From Bombella dulcis (GTDB lineage: Bacteria; Pseudomonadota; Alphaproteobacteria; Acetobacterales; Acetobacteraceae): a stretch of DNA of 64,000 nt. Positions 11,120 to 62,921 of the stretch are shown here, in pieces (the first letter of the stretch is position 1; every line of letters starts with the position of its first letter). Where the stretch lies: positions 1 to 64,000 of the forward strand of contig NZ_JANIDV010000003.1 in the NCBI RefSeq assembly GCF_026385505.1, given 5' to 3'. Made by a program: the position numbers and the translations under genes. The notes beneath the pieces were generated by a model. That model was not told where the DNA came from and made no database searches. It worked only from the letters and a program-made list of their open reading frames with translations.

Positions 11120-11785
11120 ATGAACGCTGACCATCACGACCCGTTTTTCGACAGAACCATGATCGAGGCCACCCTCCAGCTCGCCCGGGACCAGGGCTGG
11201 CACAGGGTATCCCTCGTTGATGCTTCACGTGAAGCAGGGCTGCCGCTCCAGCAGGTCCGACAGCGTTTCCCGTTCAAGTCCATGATCCTGCTGCGGCTGA
11301 GCCGCCAGATTGATGATGCCACCCTCTGTAGCGCAAGCTATGGCACGACCGTCCGTGAACGGCTGTTCGACCTGCTCATGCGGCGTTTTGATGCCATGCA
11401 GGATTACCGCCCCGGTATCTGCGCCATGATGCAGGCTCTCCCCCGTGACCCGGCACTGGCCGCTTTCCTCGCCGGAACGACCATGGAAAGCCTGCGCTGG
11501 ATCGCTGATTCAGCAGCACTGGACCGTCACGGTCTTGGTGGCATGGTACGGCTCAACGCCCTTCTGGCCGTCTGGTCCAGAACACTCGTCAGCTGGGAAA
11601 AGGACATTACGCCCGATCTGGCAGACACCATGCAGACACTGGACAAGGCCCTGGCCCGTGCCGAACGGATGGGACTGCTGAAAGAATCCACCCTTCCCGA
11701 ACCGTCCGAACCTACCCCGGATGAAGGGGGACTGCCCGACCATGTTGTTCCCGAAGACAGCGAAAATGAAAACAGGCTGTCCTGA
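11120..11785 (+). CDS. COQ9 family protein
   Basis: About 221 residues. The N-terminal third looks like a TetR-type helical domain (LQLARDQGWHRVSLVDASREAGL, then QVRQRFPFKSMILLRLS). The rest matches bacterial COQ9: RRFDAMQDYRPGICAMMQALPRDP and a C-terminal Trp-rich helix with WSRTLVSWEKDITPDLADTM. COQ9 binds lipid and supports the ubiquinone hydroxylation step. The start at 11120 is chosen over an in-frame ATG at 11039 that would add an unconserved leader. It ends in an acidic Glu/Pro-rich tail. Confidence 0.85.
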   Translation: MNADHHDPFFDRTMIEATLQLARDQGWHRVSLVDASREAGLPLQQVRQRFPFKSMILLRLSRQIDDATLCSASYGTTVRERLFDLLMRRFDAMQDYRPGICAMMQALPRDPALAAFLAGTTMESLRWIADSAALDRHGLGGMVRLNALLAVWSRTLVSWEKDITPDLADTMQTLDKALARAERMGLLKESTLPEPSEPTPDEGGLPDHVVPEDSENENRLS

Positions 11786-48892: not shown

Positions 48893-48908
48893 TGTTTCAC
48901 ATGAAACA
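48893..48908. promoter_or_regulatory. parS-like centromere site 1
   Basis: TGTTTCACATGAAACA differs from the bacterial parS consensus TGTTTCACGTGAAACA at one of 16 positions. It lies in the gap between convergent mutY and wrbA, outside coding sequence. ParB binds such sites near the origin. Confidence 0.75.
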
Positions 48909-51607: not shown

Positions 51608-51623
51608 TGTTTCCCGTGAAACA
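51608..51623. promoter_or_regulatory. parS-like centromere site 2
   Basis: TGTTTCCCGTGAAACA differs from the parS consensus at one of 16 positions (position 7). It lies in the gap between pirin and the unknown gene, 2.7 kb from the first site. Both are intergenic. Confidence 0.75.
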
Positions 51624-52421: not shown

Positions 52422-53861
52422 TCAGCCCTTCAGTGCCTTGCGGACACCCTCGGCATAGGCCGGATCAATCTTCTCGAAGAGACCCAGCTGACGCTCGATG
52501 ATGTTCTGCGGCACGCTAGCCATGGCACCGGCAATGTTGTTGTACAGACGCTGCTTCTGGGCATCATCGAACAGATGATACAGGGCACGCGGCTGTGCGA
52601 AGTCGTCACCATCCGTACGATGCTCGTAGTAGGTGGCATCCCCGCTCACACGCAGCGGCGGTTCCATCGCAGCCAGGTCTTCCACCGGACCACCGAAGGA
52701 ATTCGGCTCGTAGAAGTCACCATCACCACGCTTCGGCTCATCAAAGCGCATGGCGCCATCGAGGTGATAGTTCTTCACCTTGATCTTCGGACGGTTGATC
52801 GGCAGGGACTCATAGTGCGTACCAACACGGTAGCGGTGAGCATCCGCATAGGCGAAGATACGGCCCTGAAGCATCCTGTCCGGGGAGAACCCGATGCCCG
52901 GCACAATGTTGGACGGAGAGAAGGAAGCCTGTTCAACCTCGGAGAAATAGTCATCCGGGTTGCGGTTCAGTTCCAGCTCACCAACCTCGATCAGCGGATA
53001 GTCCTTGTGGGACCAGACCTTGGTCACGTCGAACGGGTTGAAGTTGACGCGCTCGGCCTCTTCTTCCCCCATCACCTGAATGTAGAACGTCCATTTGGGG
53101 AAATTCCCCTTCTCGATGTTCTCATATAGGTCTTCCTGGGTGGACTCGCGGGTCTTGGCCACGACCTCGGCAGCTTCCTCGGTCGTATAGAACTCATGGC
53201 CCTGCTGGGTTTTGAAGTGGAACTTCACCCAGAAGCGTTCACCCTTGGCGTTCCACAGGGAATAGGTATGACTGCCATACCCGTTCATGTTGCGGATGCC
53301 CTTGGGGATACCACGGTCAGACATCAGGATGGTGACCTGATGCAGGCTCTCCGGGCTGAGGGACCAGAAATCCCACATGGCCGTTGCAGAGCGCAGGTTG
53401 GTACGGGGATGACGCTTCTGCGTGTGGATAAAGTCCGGGAACTTGATGGGATCACGGATGAAGAAGACCGGGGTGTTGTTACCCACCAGGTCCCAGTTGC
53501 CGTCATCGGTATAGAACTTCAGTGCCCAGCCACGCACGTCACGCTCGGCATCAGCAGCACCACGCTCACCAGCGACGGTGGAAGCACGCAGGAACATGTC
53601 CGTCTTCTTGCCAACCTTGGAGAAGATGGACGCACAGCTGTACTTCGTGATGTCCTTGGTGATGGTCAGTGTCCCGTGAGCACCAACGCCCTTGGCATGA
53701 ACGGTACGTTCCGGAATACGCTCACGGTTCTGATGGGCGAGCTTCTCGATCAGCTGGTAGTTTTCCAGCAGCAGCGGGCCACGGGGACCAGCGGACTTGC
53801 TGTCCTGGTTGCTCACCCACGGGGCACCGGCGGTCGTGCGAATGATATTCTTATCAGACAT
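52422..53861 (-). CDS. katA: Catalase (monofunctional, haem)
   Basis: 479 residues, small-subunit clade. Catalytic His lies in [13 protein letters not shown], the Asn in [22 protein letters not shown], and the haem-ligand Tyr in the [18 protein letters not shown] segment. Breaks down hydrogen peroxide. It stands alone with a 318-base upstream region. Confidence 0.97.
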
Positions 53862-57423: not shown

Positions 57424-58554
57424 TCAGATATCCAGCAGCAGACGGCGCGGGTCTTCAATCAGCTCTTTCAGCCTCACAAGGAAACTGACAGCCTCCCGCC
57501 CATCCACCAGACGATGATCGTAGGAAAGAGCCACATACATCATCGGACGGATGACCACCTGCCCATCCACCGCCACGGGACGGTCCTGGATGGCATGCAT
57601 CCCCAGAACACCAGACTGCGGCGCATTGAGAATGGGGGTGGAGAGCAGCGACCCGAAAATACCGCCATTCGTGATGGTGAAGCTGCCGCCTTCAAGCTCC
57701 TTCAGGGCAAGGCCGCCCTTGCGGGCACGTCTACCATAATCGGCGATCTGCCGCTCCAGTTTGGCAAAACCCAGCGTCTCAGCTTCCCGCAGGACAGGGA
57801 CAACCAGCCCCCGTTCCGTTCCCACGGCAATGCCCAGATTGACGTGATCCTGATAGACAATTTCATTGCCTTCAATCCGGGCATTCAGCACCGGAAAATC
57901 CTTCAGTGCCCCCACGATGGCCCGTGCAAAGAAAGACATGAACCCCAGACGGGCACCGTCATGCTTCTTCTCAAACAGGTCCCGATACTGGCTGCGCAGA
58001 GCCTTGACGGCACTCATGTCGACTTCATTGAATGTCGTCAGGATGGCCGCATTGTTCTGGGCCGCCTTGAGATTACGGGCAATGGTCTGACGCAGACGAC
58101 TCATGGGCACACGCCGCTCCCCTGTCACCTTCCCGGCAGAAGCCTTTCCAGACCCGACAGAGGGCGGTACGGGAGCTGTCTGGATGACCGTCCCTCCAGA
58201 CACTGTGTCAGACACATCACTGCCCGACACGGCCGGACCATGATCCGTCACATTCTGTTCAGCCGTCGTCTGGAGTGACACGTCCCGTTCCTTTAAGGCC
58301 TGCGGTTCAGGAGCCGTAGCCTGATCATCCACATGGGCAATCACCTGCCCGACCTCGACATCGGTCCCTTCCGCCAGGTCATGTTTCAGTTTTCCGGCAA
58401 CCGGTGCGGGTACATCCAGTGTGACCTTGTCCGTTTCCAGCTCCAGAACAGCCTCCCCGGCCTGCACGTAGTCGCCGGACTGTTTCAGCCAACGCATCAC
58501 GGTTGCCTGTTTCAGGCTTTCACCAAGCACAGGGACCTTAATTTCAACCGTCAT
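57424..58554 (-). CDS. odhB: Dihydrolipoyllysine-residue succinyltransferase (E2 of 2-oxoglutarate dehydrogenase)
   Basis: 376 residues. The N-terminal lipoyl domain has the lysine in [16 protein letters not shown] Pro/Ala/Gln-rich linker follows, then a region around [22 protein letters not shown], and the catalytic domain with [18 protein letters not shown] (His/Asp of the acyltransferase). GGAG six bases before the ATG at 58554 decides the start. sucA and lpd, its usual neighbours, are absent from the window. No peripheral-subunit binding domain is clearly seen in the short linker. Confidence 0.92.
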
Positions 58555-58703
58555 CGTGACTCCTGCCATTCCAGAACTTGAAAAACAGGCCTGCCCCCCT
58601 ACATGCCGGGGGAGGTCCAGCCTCCATGCTTTATTATATCCCCTGATGCGGGGATAGGGTAAAGCCTTCTCTCTGTCTTTTCACTTTTCTTGAGGGACAT
58701 GTC

Positions 58704-59330
58704 ATGTCTTACTCTCCCCCTCCCTTTCTCCAGTCTGATCATGTTTCATCCCGTACACGCTCCATCCTGCTCAGAAGAATGGAGCAGGAACAGGGCAGAC
58801 GAGAAAATCTGTCCCCGGAAGCTTTCCAGCTTCTCGAGACCGTCTGTGATGACATCCTGCCCCAGCAGTTTCTTCTGGGTGATCTACGTCTCAATCTGGC
58901 TGTCATGATTGATCAGTCCCTTGCAGGATCGGGTGATGGTTGGCGTTTTGCTGAACTGCCTGCCGACCTTCAGGCATGGGAAGATGGCCTGACGTCACTG
59001 AATCAGTATGCCCAGGCTCTTTTTTCGCAGAATTATACCGCCCTTCATGCTGACCAGAGAGGCGTGGTTCTGGACCAGGCTTTTGACGGAACATTGCCAG
59101 AGCATGATCAGGCTGTTTTTTCACCTGAACAGATGGCATTATGGAGCGGTGACTTACGCCATAACATCGTATCCTTTTTTCTGGCGCATCCTGTCGTGCA
59201 GGACAGGCTGGGAATTTCAGCCAACATGACAGGAGGAGATCATATAATTCAGGGATTTAAGGCTGATTCCCTGACAGACAAGGAAGGCTTTGAGCCAGAT
59301 CATAAACGCCATTTCATGGCTCAGTCATAG
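58704..59330 (+). CDS. Gluconate 2-dehydrogenase subunit 3-like protein
   Basis: 208 residues. Its core fits the gluconate 2-dehydrogenase subunit 3 family: FQLLETVCDDILPQ matches the usual LxALxDxLIP start, then LNLAVMIDQSLAG, YAQALFSQNYTALHADQRGVVLDQAFDGTL and NIVSFFLAHPVVQDRLG. Such subunits stabilise the flavoprotein. Unlike most of them, no Tat signal (twin Arg plus hydrophobic stretch) is visible at the N-terminus. The GMC flavoprotein follows in the same direction, but 449 bases away, across the origin-like region. Confidence 0.7.
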   Translation: MSYSPPPFLQSDHVSSRTRSILLRRMEQEQGRRENLSPEAFQLLETVCDDILPQQFLLGDLRLNLAVMIDQSLAGSGDGWRFAELPADLQAWEDGLTSLNQYAQALFSQNYTALHADQRGVVLDQAFDGTLPEHDQAVFSPEQMALWSGDLRHNIVSFFLAHPVVQDRLGISANMTGGDHIIQGFKADSLTDKEGFEPDHKRHFMAQS

Positions 59331-59779
59331 ATCAGAAATATGGGGTCTGACTGCTTGTTTATAGGATCAGAAGAACCGGTTCGTAGAGCTGGATCACGGT
59401 GTTCCTTGGAAGACATGTTTCAGTGCTTCGTTCTGGTGTGATGCAGTTTTTTTCGTCTGACTGTCGAATATCACAACAGTTAAATTATAAATTTATAATT
59501 TAGATGATGTAGAAAAACCTTGTGGAAACTGGGGTACCCGGTTTTCTGAAAATGTACCCCAGCTTGCTCACAGTGTGTACAACTCCACAAAACAAGGAAG
59601 ATCAAGGGATGCAGAATGTTATCCCTCCTTTTCCACAGAACCCCTGTGTACAATCCCCTTTTTATAAGGGGGTACAGTACCGTCCCCGGTACTCGGTACC
59701 TCATCTCCTGTCAGGCAGTAATGTCCCCATGTACCCCAGTACGAACGTCTTTCATTCATGAACGGATAAGAAGAGTCTC
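59331..59779. other. oriC: Candidate chromosomal replication origin (non-coding)
   Basis: 449 bases with no gene. Inside are a perfect 22-bp palindrome made only of A and T at 59481-59502; a consensus DnaA box TTTTCCACA at 59629-59637; near boxes TGTGGAAAC at 59521-59529 and TGTGTACAA at 59574-59582 and 59645-59653; and the 11-mer ATGTACCCCAG at 59552-59562 and 59729-59739, whose core also occurs inverted (CTGGGGTAC, 59529-59537). These features, with nearby parS-like sites and rho, suggest oriC, but no experiment or skew plot supports it here. Confidence 0.55.
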
Positions 59780-61324
59780 ATGAGCCAACAGAATTCTCCC
59801 AATTTTTCTCAGGATACTGTCGATGTTGTCGTTATTGGAACGGGAGCAGGTGGTGCCCCCCTGACGGCCCGGCTTGCCATGGCTGGGCGTCGGGTTGTGG
59901 CACTGGAGGCGGGACCGGCTTTCAGTGCCCGGTCCCATACGCCGGATGAACCGGCGGCCCAGGAACTGTACTGGCTGCATGAACGTCTGTCAGGTGGCGG
60001 GACGCCTCAGGCCTTTGGTGGTAATAACAGTGGAACGGGCATAGGGGGGTCCCTTCTTCATTACGGAGCCTTTCTGCCCCGCATGGATGCCCGGGATTAT
60101 CGGCTGTTCAGCGAGAGTGGCAAAGGTGTCGACTGGCCCTTCGGTGCGGAAGAGCTTCAGCCTTATGTGGAAGAGGTGGAACGTTTCATCGGCGTGAGTG
60201 GTCCAGCGCATTATCCGTGGGACGCCGACCGTCATTATGCCTATCCGCCGCTGGCACCCAACATGGCGGCTCTGAAAATGCGTCAGGCCTGTGACAATGT
60301 CGGGCTGCGTCATGCTGATGGTCCCGTGGCCGTGATTACGAAAGATCATGACCAGCCGCATTTTGGACGGCGGGAACAGTGCGTGAACTGTGGAGCCTGT
60401 CATCAGGGCTGCCGGAACGGGGCGAAATCAGGTGTGGACAACACATATCTGCCTCTGGCCTGTGCTCATGGGGCAGAGCTGCGTCCTGGCTGCATGGCGA
60501 CGGGGTTTGAGCGGGATAGCCAGGGACGCATTACGGCAGTCATCTATGTGCGGAATGGTCGGGAAGAGCGGCAGAAATGCAGGGCTGTGGTGCTGTCCGC
60601 CGGGGCCGTGGAAACGGCCCGTCTGCTGCTGAATAATGGTCTGGCGAACAGTTCCGGGCAGGTGGGCCGTAATTACATGACGCATGTTTCCACGCAGGTA
60701 TGGGGCATCTTTGATGAGGAAACCCAACCGAACAAGGGTTATCCGTCCCTGACCATCTCTGAAGACATGATGCGGCCGAAGGATGCCGATTTTGCAGGGG
60801 GATATCTGCTCCAGTCTCTGGGCATGATGCCGCTGACATGGGCTGCCAATCTTGTCCGGGCCGATGGACGGCGTGGTGAGGCACTCAGCCGTACACTGGC
60901 TGCCTATAATTACAGTGCCGGGATTGGCATGCATGGTGAGAGTCTGCCAAGCGAGAAGAACCGTGTGACGCTTTCTGACGAGAAGGATGCTTTCGGTCTG
61001 CCCAAGCCACGGATTGACCATACATATGGGCCGAATGAGGAAGCCATGCACCATCATGCGTCCCGTCTGATGGTGAAGATGTGGGAGTCCATCGGTGCGA
61101 AGGACATCCGTATCATCAGCCGTGCGGCCCACATGATCGGGACCTGCCGGATGGGGATGGATGCGGGGGCGGCCGTGGTCAATCCATATGGGCGCAGCTT
61201 TGACATCGACAATCTGTGGATCAGCGATCACTCTACCTTCCCGAGTTCTGGAGCGGCCAATCCGGCCCTGACCATCATGGCCCTGTCCCTGCGGACGGCA
61301 GATGCCATGCTGAAACAGGTTTGA
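59780..61324 (+). CDS. GMC-family membrane-type dehydrogenase flavoprotein (gluconate 2-dehydrogenase large-subunit type)
   Basis: 514 residues. The N-terminal FAD-binding motif is VVVIGTGAGGAPLTARLA, and LEAGPAFS follows. The four-cysteine motif CVNCGACHQGC is that proposed to bind an Fe-S cluster in gluconate and fructose dehydrogenase large subunits. The catalytic region has NYMTHVS, HMIGTCRMG and NLWISDHSTFPSSGAANPALTIMALSLR. Oxidises an alcohol or sugar acid and passes electrons on. No cytochrome c subunit gene is adjacent, and no signal peptide is seen. Confidence 0.88.
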   Translation: MSQQNSPNFSQDTVDVVVIGTGAGGAPLTARLAMAGRRVVALEAGPAFSARSHTPDEPAAQELYWLHERLSGGGTPQAFGGNNSGTGIGGSLLHYGAFLPRMDARDYRLFSESGKGVDWPFGAEELQPYVEEVERFIGVSGPAHYPWDADRHYAYPPLAPNMAALKMRQACDNVGLRHADGPVAVITKDHDQPHFGRREQCVNCGACHQGCRNGAKSGVDNTYLPLACAHGAELRPGCMATGFERDSQGRITAVIYVRNGREERQKCRAVVLSAGAVETARLLLNNGLANSSGQVGRNYMTHVSTQVWGIFDEETQPNKGYPSLTISEDMMRPKDADFAGGYLLQSLGMMPLTWAANLVRADGRRGEALSRTLAAYNYSAGIGMHGESLPSEKNRVTLSDEKDAFGLPKPRIDHTYGPNEEAMHHHASRLMVKMWESIGAKDIRIISRAAHMIGTCRMGMDAGAAVVNPYGRSFDIDNLWISDHSTFPSSGAANPALTIMALSLRTADAMLKQV

Positions 61325-61610
61325 AGGGCCTTTAAGGCCATGTGAGGGCTGCTTGACAGTGCAGCCCTCTTTCACCTAGGAAGAAAGCCGACCTGACGGT
61401 GGCGGCGTCCTGCCTTGCCTGCCGGGTCATCTCCTTCTTACCGGAAGGCAGTTTTGCCGGTTTTCGTGGGATGGTTTCTCGGACCGTCCAGGCTGGCTGG
61501 TCTGCCTGTGGCGTGGCCCCTGCATGGCTGTGCAGGTATCCGGCCTGTATTCTGGTTCTACGTCCATCCCGCTTTTCTCCCCACCGGGGCACATCAAGGC
61601 GCATCATTTC
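61325..61610. other. rho upstream region, no separate gene
   Basis: 286 bases between the GMC gene and rho. It is T- and G-rich on the plus strand. Frames that extend rho upstream to 61524 are not family-like. No clear attenuator hairpin was recognised, although rho genes are often preceded by a regulated leader. Confidence 0.5.
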
Positions 61611-62921
61611 ATGCATCTCGCCGAACTGAAGAAGAAATCTCCTGCTGATCTGCTGGCTTTTGCTGAGGAACTGGAGGTTGAAAACGCATCGTCCCTGCGC
61701 AAGCAGGACATGATGTTTGCCATCCTCAAGAGCCTCGCCGAGCGTGACCAGGCAATTTATGGTGAAGGCACACTTGAGATCCTGCCGGATGGCTTCGGCT
61801 TCCTGCGCAGCCCGGAAGCCAACTATCTGCCCGGTCCGGATGACATCTATGTGTCTCCTGCACAGGTGCGACGTTTTGCGCTGCGGCCCGGTGATACGGT
61901 GGAAGGCGAGATCCGTGCCCCGCGGGATGGTGAACGGTACTTTGCGCTTCAGAAGGTCAACACCATCAATTTCGAGGCTCCGGAGCAGGTCCGGACCCGG
62001 ATCAATTTTGACAACCTGACACCTCTCTTCCCTGAACGCCGTCTCCGCATGGAGACTGAGCCGAAGGGTGAGGTCAGTGCTGCCCCGGCTCCGGCCAAGG
62101 GCAAGGGACGTGACCGCAAGGACCAGAAGGATTACACCTCCCGTGTGATCGATCTGGTCTCTCCCATCGGCATGGGCCAGCGTGCCCTGATCGTTGCCCC
62201 GCCAAGAACGGGCAAGACGGTGATGCTCCAGAGCATTGCGGCCTCCATTTCCGCCAATCATCCGGATGTGTTCCTCATCGTCCTTCTGATTGACGAGCGG
62301 CCGGAGGAAGTGACGGACATGGCCCGTTCTGTCCGTGGTGAGGTTGTGTCCTCCACCTTCGATGAGCCGGCGCACCGTCATGTGCAGGTGACGGAAATGG
62401 TACTGGAAAAGGCCAAGCGTCTTGTTGAGCACAAGCGTGACGTGGTCATCCTGCTGGATTCCATCACTCGTCTGGCCCGTGCCTATAACACCGTCGTGCC
62501 GTCATCCGGCAAGGTGCTGACTGGTGGTGTGGATGCCAACGCACTCCAGCGGCCGAAGCGTTTCTTCGGTGCGGCCCGTAACATCGAGGAAGGTGGCTCC
62601 CTGACGATCATTGCCACGGCCCTGATTGATACGGGGTCCCGCATGGATGAAGTCATCTTTGAAGAATTTAAGGGAACGGGTAACTCCGAGCTGATGTTGG
62701 ATCGCAAGCTGGCAGACAAGCGGACCTTCCCGGCTATCGACATCACCAAGTCCGGTACCCGCAAGGAAGAGCTGCTGGTGGATCGGGCCTCCCTCTCCAA
62801 GATGTGGGTCCTGCGCCGTATCCTTGCCCCGATGGGCACGATGGATGCCATGGACTTCCTGCTGGACAAGCTGCGCTACAGCAAGACCAATCAGGACTTC
62901 TTTGATGCGATGAACAACTGA
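61611..62921 (+). CDS. rho: Transcription termination factor Rho
   Basis: 436 residues, close to the usual 420. N-terminal [24 protein letters not shown]-binding cold-shock-like domain ([28 protein letters not shown]), Walker [12 protein letters not shown], Walker [17 protein letters not shown], and the Q/R loops ([37 protein letters not shown]). Hexameric RNA helicase. The ATG at 61611 is chosen because the N-terminus then matches Rho proteins. A hairpin terminator follows at 62951. Confidence 0.97.

Follow-up and report, generated by a model that had tools for sequence, protein, structure and literature searches.

Introduction

Where does replication of the chromosome start in the bee-associated acetic acid bacterium Bombella dulcis, and could a gap of 449 bp between two ORFs be the place? 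The DNA analysed here (the window) consists of the first 64,000 bases of the 275,274-base contig C21, which belongs to a draft genome of 1.87 Mb in 27 contigs. A first-pass annotation, made from the letters alone, had proposed a possible chromosome replication origin in this gap. We followed up the proposal by computational analysis of the window, of its contig and of related genomes.

The gap and its flanking genes

The gap is non-coding, as annotated, and ORFs of the + strand bound it on both sides (58704-59330 and 59780-61324; Table 1). These ORFs had been read as two dehydrogenase genes. With Gluconate_2-dh3 and GMC domains, the products look rather like the small and the catalytic subunits of one GMC-type dehydrogenase. 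The rho gene, which had been placed nearby, is confirmed by Pfam.

By the GMC-side gene the nearest relatives are ten loci (87.7-93% protein identity), hereafter Bombella-type, which we take to be acetic acid bacteria: seven named Bombella, Parasaccharibacter apium AS1, an uncultured Acetobacteraceae MAG and strain B3987. The window genome encodes a canonical DnaA (one match to DnaA domain IV, Pfam PF08299), whose ORF contains NRDHTTV, presumably the usual DnaA recognition helix. The ORF after dnaA, on a contig other than C21, is one that we take to be dnaN. Proteins of the GcrA family and of the N6/N4 DNA methylase family are also encoded by this genome.

Table 1. Positions of the features discussed, in window coordinates
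Feature	Position	Strand	Remarks
parS-like site	11221-11236		two mismatches
parS-like site	48893-48908		one mismatch
parS-like site	51608-51623		one mismatch
Dehydrogenase small subunit (Gluconate_2-dh3)	58704-59330	+	Pfam PF13618
Intergenic region with the putative origin	59331-59779		449 bp, ORFs on either side
A/T-rich stretch, proposed DNA unwinding element	59471-59504		includes the 22-bp palindrome 59481-59502; mean identity to 10 relatives 0.79; A-rich in other genera
DnaA box 1, GTTTCCACA	59521-59529	-	one mismatch; ATATCCACA-like in several other genera; TGT invariant and next G at least 90% in 31 sequences
GGGGTACCC box	59531-59539		invariant in 31 sequences save one nearly invariant column; mostly retained beside hemE in more distant family members
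TGTACCCC box	59553-59560		GTACC invariant in 31 sequences
Weak DnaA-box-like site TTGCTCACA	59564-59572	+	two mismatches; faces the next box; TT and ACA invariant
DnaA-box-like TTGTACACA	59574-59582	-	one mismatch; GTAC invariant
Consensus DnaA box TTTTCCACA	59629-59637	+	in 11/11 aligned sequences
DnaA-box-like TTGTACACA	59645-59653	-	one mismatch; TGTGTACAA invariant in 31 sequences
GGGGTACAGTAC, two GTAC motifs	59669-59680		GTAC at 59672 and 59677; conservation lower outside Bombella
TCCCCGGTACTCGGTAC block	59683-59699		GTAC motifs; 31-sequence alignment
TCCCCATGTACCCCAGTAC block	59724-59742		most columns at least 90% conserved in 31 sequences
GMC oxidoreductase, catalytic subunit	59780-61324	+	Pfam PF05199/PF00732
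rho	61524-62921	+	Pfam

DnaA boxes, A/T-rich stretch and GTAC boxes

DnaA boxes were scored on both strands with the consensus TTWTNCACA. The perfect box that had been annotated in the gap is indeed TTTTCCACA, and the three others (boxes at 59521, 59574 and 59645) each carry, as had been described, a single mismatch to the consensus; they lie on the - strand. The number of exact matches in the window is by itself unremarkable (4 for 2.3 expected). Within the 449-bp gap, sites with at most one mismatch number 5, while 1000 shuffles of the gap gave a mean of 1.07 and reached 5 in 0.5% of cases. This is a predicted DnaA-box cluster of the kind that a DnaA-type oriC carries. A perfect DnaA box, TTATCCACA, also lies on the - strand at 53423-53431, 6 kb from the putative origin.

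The A/T-rich stretch, with its all-A/T 22-mer, adjoins the DnaA boxes and forms a putative unwinding element. Its 22-bp palindrome is perfect on recheck. As a possible unwinding element it survives in part: the richness in A/T is kept among the relatives, but the palindrome itself in only one of the ten that were aligned (L009), and we do not retain it as a conserved unit. Nor do we claim that the TAGATGATGTAG stretch next to box 1 holds a DnaA-trio: of 53 upstream stretches, 16 contained the motif set (mean 4.35 and maximum 12 in 200 shuffles), but opposite-strand rows were among the 53.

A second class of motif, absent from the first-pass annotation, is the strongest feature of the gap. The tetramer GTAC occurs 10 times in the 266 bp of the conserved core (59505-59770, see below), where 0.38 would be expected from the rest of the window; the other 266-bp stretches that were scanned hold at most 3. 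These tetramers fall in the GGGGTACCC, TGTACCCC, TGTGTACAA, TCCCCGGTACTCGGTAC and TCCCCATGTACCCCAGTAC blocks, interleaved with the DnaA boxes. The putative GTACCCC boxes are too conserved and too regularly spaced for accident, and could be either low-affinity DnaA sites or the target of another protein. In all, the element is made up of the A/T stretch, four DnaA boxes plus a weak fifth, and the GTAC boxes.

The 449-bp gap contains no site with at most one mismatch to the CtrA motif, TTAAN7TTAA. An exact IHF consensus is also lacking, though a weaker IHF site may be present. Despite the GcrA-family and methylase-family proteins of this genome, a Caulobacter-type control by CtrA is therefore not supported at this putative origin.

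Conservation and distribution of the element

The conserved unit measures about 285 bp (about 59471-59757). The mean identity of the ten relatives to the window is 79% in 59471-59504, 88% in 59505-59584, 60% in 59585-59614, 83% in 59615-59657, 96% in 59658-59700, 54% in 59701-59725 and 79% in 59726-59760. The outer parts of the gap are poorly conserved, with 40% (0.40) in 59331-59470 and 49% (0.49) in 59761-59779.

The first-pass annotation had suggested a search for the same region in related genomes. By BLAST the core is found in 66 of the 299 sampled genomes of the family, and in 21 of 102 genera. Each of these 66 genomes has it in one place, save for one 27-base match elsewhere in one genome. 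All 16 named genomes tested, i.e. 16 of the 36 named loci, possess it (1 Bombella, 8 Gluconobacter, 5 Asaia and 2 Neokomagataea).

We aligned 31 representatives (<93% identity) drawn from 47 distinct sequences. The left block, of 70 bases, aligns with no gap and has 31 invariant columns; in the right block 27 of 119 columns are invariant. The left block is partly an inverted repeat, and its own profile also matches the opposite strand in the window. This profile detects 72 of the 299 family genomes at E below 1e-8, a count that includes the genomes used to build it, and a further 45 with weak matches (E up to 0.1). Twenty regions were inspected, comprising 19 of these 45 weak-match genomes, mostly the better-scoring ones, plus one strong match: the match adjoins hemE in 19, and the 20th is cut by a contig end, with maf downstream. 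The first-pass annotation had pointed out that rho lies close to the origin in many alphaproteobacteria; in these more distant family members rho is within about 6 kb of the hemE-linked match in 8 of the 20 regions.

In an order-level sample 117 of 200 genomes match at E up to 0.01, and the module formed by the DnaA box and GGGGTACCC appears to reach beyond the acetic acid bacteria. A class-level sample gave 14 matches in 240 genomes. Three are strong and all belong to the family of the window; the other 11 are partial (E 0.003-0.09), and we take them as chance rather than as the element outside the family. In one record (G577:C1:91-155) only 91 bp precede the element, which looks as though the depositors had chosen this putative origin as the start of their chromosome.

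GC skew and parABS around the gap

In bins of 2 kb the GC skew is negative throughout positions 1-58000 (29 of 29 bins); the bin 58001-60000 is still weakly negative, and the two bins that remain are positive. Farther along the contig, from 64 to 144 kb, 16 of 16 bins of 5 kb are positive. For an origin in the gap, the cumulative minimum had been predicted at about 59.4 kb. On the data for contig C21 it falls at 58875, 630 bases to the left of the core. The best skew step falls no more than about 1 kb upstream of the GMC gene in 10/10 Bombella-type loci. Give or take about 1 kb, the skew switch thus coincides with the gap both in the window and in all ten of these loci.

The two parS-like sites that had been reported near the gap are present, at 48893 and 51608, each with one mismatch. 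The window holds 3 parS-like sites where 0.12 would be expected. Over the whole genome, places with at most one mismatch to TGTTNCACGTGNAACA are 48893, 51608, 69520 and 124465, all on contig C21, while a control pattern gave one match on each strand. The parA/parB genes are at 70020-71785 of the contig. Predicted parS sites and parAB are therefore within tens of kb of the gap, as for an origin linked to parABS. The site at 11221-11236 and that at 124465 of C21 stretch the possible parS zone to over 110 kb.

Position beside hemE in relatives and probable relocation in the Bombella lineage

We located the element in 54 genome entries, a few genomes being counted twice. It is beside hemE in 42, with maf also in the stretch examined in 35 of these, and between the small-subunit and GMC genes in the other 12. 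The latter comprise nine Bombella-type genomes, among them that of the window, and three from a further genus (g101). This genus is presumably a close relative of Bombella, given that its element is similar and occupies the same location. In two distant family members checked, PF03618 (COG1806/DUF299 family) is found on the other side of the element. This domain, which usually marks the second neighbour of alphaproteobacterial oriC, lies between the putative oriC and maf in regions L242 and L249; it is absent in L108, where maf directly follows the element. Beside hemE, the classical place of oriC in alphaproteobacteria, and paired with COG1806 in these distant members, the element is thus a continuation of that classical oriC.

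A distant oriC at dnaA or hemE, named in the first-pass annotation as the finding that would count against its proposal, did not materialise: dnaA is on another contig, and hemE lies 25 kb away without the element. On the contig of the window maf (84752-85351, -) and the hemE ORF (85455-86603, +) are adjacent and divergent, and after hemE comes a HAD-gene homologue, as in relatives. In 8/8 Bombella-type or g101 genomes examined, including that of the window, hemE and maf are adjacent and the element is absent from their junction; BLAST with E allowed up to 1 returned no more than two short matches, several kb from the junction. Conversely, the small-subunit and GMC genes abut in 26/26 loci of Gluconobacter, Neokomagataea and Asaia, with 35-83 bp between aligned ends, versus 419-500 bp in the ten Bombella-type loci.

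The gene orders odhB/small subunit/GMC/rho and maf/hemE/HAD are each kept in relatives and in Bombella, and only the element differs. Since both contexts are otherwise kept, it is the element itself that changed place: the putative origin appears to have moved on its own, over about 25,000 bases, and to have split a two-gene operon. Relative to hemE-maf, the element in Bombella points the opposite way from that in the relatives.

Only relative positions are visible in such a comparison, and an oriC that stayed where it was, while hemE-maf and their neighbours moved away from it, would be another way to arrive at the present arrangement. We consider this unlikely, because each of the two gene contexts has its own order in relatives and Bombella alike and the element alone shifts, and because inversions alone would need to be at least two, the second nearly undoing the first.

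The movement would have taken place in an ancestor of Bombella and g101, the element alone being carried about 25 kb and flipped relative to hemE-maf on its way to the operon junction. Two successive inversions sharing a breakpoint beside hemE could have been the route, or an excision, or a copying with loss of the old copy. Two inversions and a single transfer would both fit the data.

Strand composition of the between-site genes

An origin at the element would mean that the genes lying between its two sites (GMC, rho, mnmE, mnmG and parAB) are replicated one way in Bombella and the other way in Gluconobacter, and odhB the same way in both. We compared the GC3 skew on the + strand of the locus between the 10 Bombella-type loci and those of Gluconobacter/Neokomagataea; the five Asaia loci, whose GMC gene does not have rho, odhB and mnmE as neighbours, were left out.

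The four between-site genes have opposite signs in the two groups: +0.17 (10/10 positive) versus -0.41 (0/21) for GMC, +0.06 (9/10) versus -0.27 (0/21) for rho, +0.30 (10/10) versus -0.21 (0/17) for mnmE and +0.22 (10/10) versus -0.31 (0/17) for mnmG. Pooled, they are positive in 39/40 cases for the Bombella-type and in 0/76 for Gluconobacter/Neokomagataea. The control odhB, which lies beyond both sites, has a negative value in either group (-0.21, 0/10 positive, versus -0.27, 0/20). The parA and parB genes, considered in the Bombella-type only, are each positive in 10/10 loci, and the signs of the single g101 locus are as in Bombella. This change of sign is a natural test of the direction of replication, and it fits an element that sets this direction.

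The small-subunit gene deviates. It is weakly positive in 9/10 Bombella-type loci (mean +0.10), where a negative value was expected, and negative in 19/21 of the other group. Because of this slightly positive value the position of the skew switch carries a margin of about 1 kb.

GC skew in other relatives

Outside Bombella the skew gives a less uniform picture. Among 20 element regions of 20 kb the best step is within 1.2 kb of the element in 9, two of which (G. cadivus and G025) have the same sign on both sides; in the other 11 the step is elsewhere or unclear. On a 1.11-Mb contig of the relative G032 (20 samples) the skew is negative between 540 and 850 kb and has become positive by 900 kb, with the element at 887 kb. 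This contig, the single 3.41-Mb contig of G025 (switch between 1.80 and 1.97 Mb, element at 1.874) and G149 (element 6 kb from the end of the record, switch also near this end) are compatible with a switch at the element. In G136 (switch between 1.80 and 1.87 Mb, element at 1.880) and in G126, whose skew is weak (1.62 to 1.64 Mb, element at 1.650), the two are at least about 10 kb apart, since the sampled region shows the switched skew right from the edge closest to the element.

Five of the seven Gluconobacter sampled (roseus, cadivus, kondonii, cerevisiae and kanchanaburiensis; genomes G305, G302, G304, G303 and G301; stretches L096, L097, L138, L262, L273-L276, L277-L284 and L288-L291) have their change point 13-27 kb from the element, on the side of hemE. 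It maps to one orthologous spot in 4 of the 5, and in roseus the cumulative minimum is 37 kb from the element. Yet roseus is colinear with G. frateurii, in which the switch is at the element, as it is in G. cerinus.

These displacements, together with those of G136 and G126, would favour a reading in which another point of this region is the origin that fires, while the nearby element is a relic or serves to bind or titrate DnaA. But this seems quite unlikely. A second element was not found at the displaced point by profile in two of the five Gluconobacter, each of the five whole genomes gives one BLAST match to the element, and no cluster of at least 3 DnaA boxes lies at the displaced point in any of the five; we thus rejected a second origin at this place. 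Moreover, the skew of Bombella, G. frateurii, G. cerinus and Neokomagataea thailandica does switch at the element, and the strand composition of the between-site genes changed along with the move of the element. The displaced skew of Gluconobacter is possibly a lineage-specific shift or the relic of one.

An operator or promoter of the GMC dehydrogenase with DnaA boxes present by chance, to which the location directly upstream of the GMC gene in Bombella would point, is largely refuted and very improbable, as the element is beside hemE without dehydrogenase genes in 42/54 entries and the operon of the relatives has no room for it in 26/26 loci.

Proposed function of the element

We conclude that the gap is very probably the chromosomal oriC, of the DnaA type, with a GTAC-box architecture particular to the lineage and relocated in the Bombella lineage. 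This reading is preferred because an element found in a single place and rigid in its spacing sits at the GC-skew switch beside parABS, and because it is conserved at the position of hemE elsewhere in the family, while here the hemE-maf junction is empty and the strand composition between the two sites is reversed.

By analogy with known origins, DnaA would bind its boxes, melt the A/T stretch and load two forks. The GTACCCC boxes would be bound by an origin protein of their own, or with low affinity by DnaA, and may set the timing. A more tentative extension, which we regard as possible though somewhat less likely than not, is that a second dedicated origin-binding protein of acetic acid bacteria reads the palindromic GTACCCC/GGGGTAC boxes, interleaved at fixed spacing with the DnaA boxes, and that the whole is a self-contained cassette that moves as a unit and resets the direction of replication.

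The case is of interest since the origin alone seems to have moved, with a closed donor site, a split target operon and a flipped strand composition of the genes in between. It would separate the effects of the origin from those of gene order without engineering. The GTAC-box pattern would provide a sequence handle for oriC in acetic acid bacteria, for which at least one published prediction uses dnaA, and a handle to fish for a new initiation factor.

Comparison with known origins

The matches listed in our literature search, for which most subscription journals are outside coverage, included no study of oriC in Bombella, Gluconobacter or Komagataeibacter, and no experiment on Bombella dulcis was found in the literature searched. 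Among these matches neither the GTAC-box architecture of acetic acid bacteria nor the clean relocation in the Bombella lineage is in print, and we take both as new.

Acetobacter cerevisiae KSO5 is also an acetic acid bacterium. According to the available part of its description, its oriC is predicted at the GC-skew maximum beside dnaA, dnaN, recF and gyrB, 51 kb from its predicted dif site (PMC13209655), whereas in the window genome dnaA and the element are on different contigs. This prediction on the side of dnaA conflicts with the hemE-linked element of the same family.

The hemE/COG1806 pair flanks the origin of Caulobacter and Rickettsia, as given in the accessible portion of PMC1914354. 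Cori of Caulobacter crescentus and the other hemE/COG1806 origins resemble the element of the window by their DnaA boxes, their A/T-rich stretch and their single intergenic place (PMC1914354, same portion). They share the hemE flank with the relatives of the window and, on the other side, COG1806 (PF03618) with the two distant family members. They differ from the window in that hemE is 25 kb away here and that, allowing one mismatch, the gap has no CtrA site; nor does any site in it match the IHF consensus exactly, though a weaker one may be present. The dense GTACCCC motifs are a further difference, the same portion of PMC1914354 making no mention of them for Caulobacter-type origins.

The origins of Wolbachia, Ehrlichia and Anaplasma, as this portion of PMC1914354 describes them, have a rearranged neighbourhood, like that of the window. 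But in these genera hemE stays and one flank changes, while in the window genome the element has new neighbours on either side and hemE and maf have closed up at the old site.
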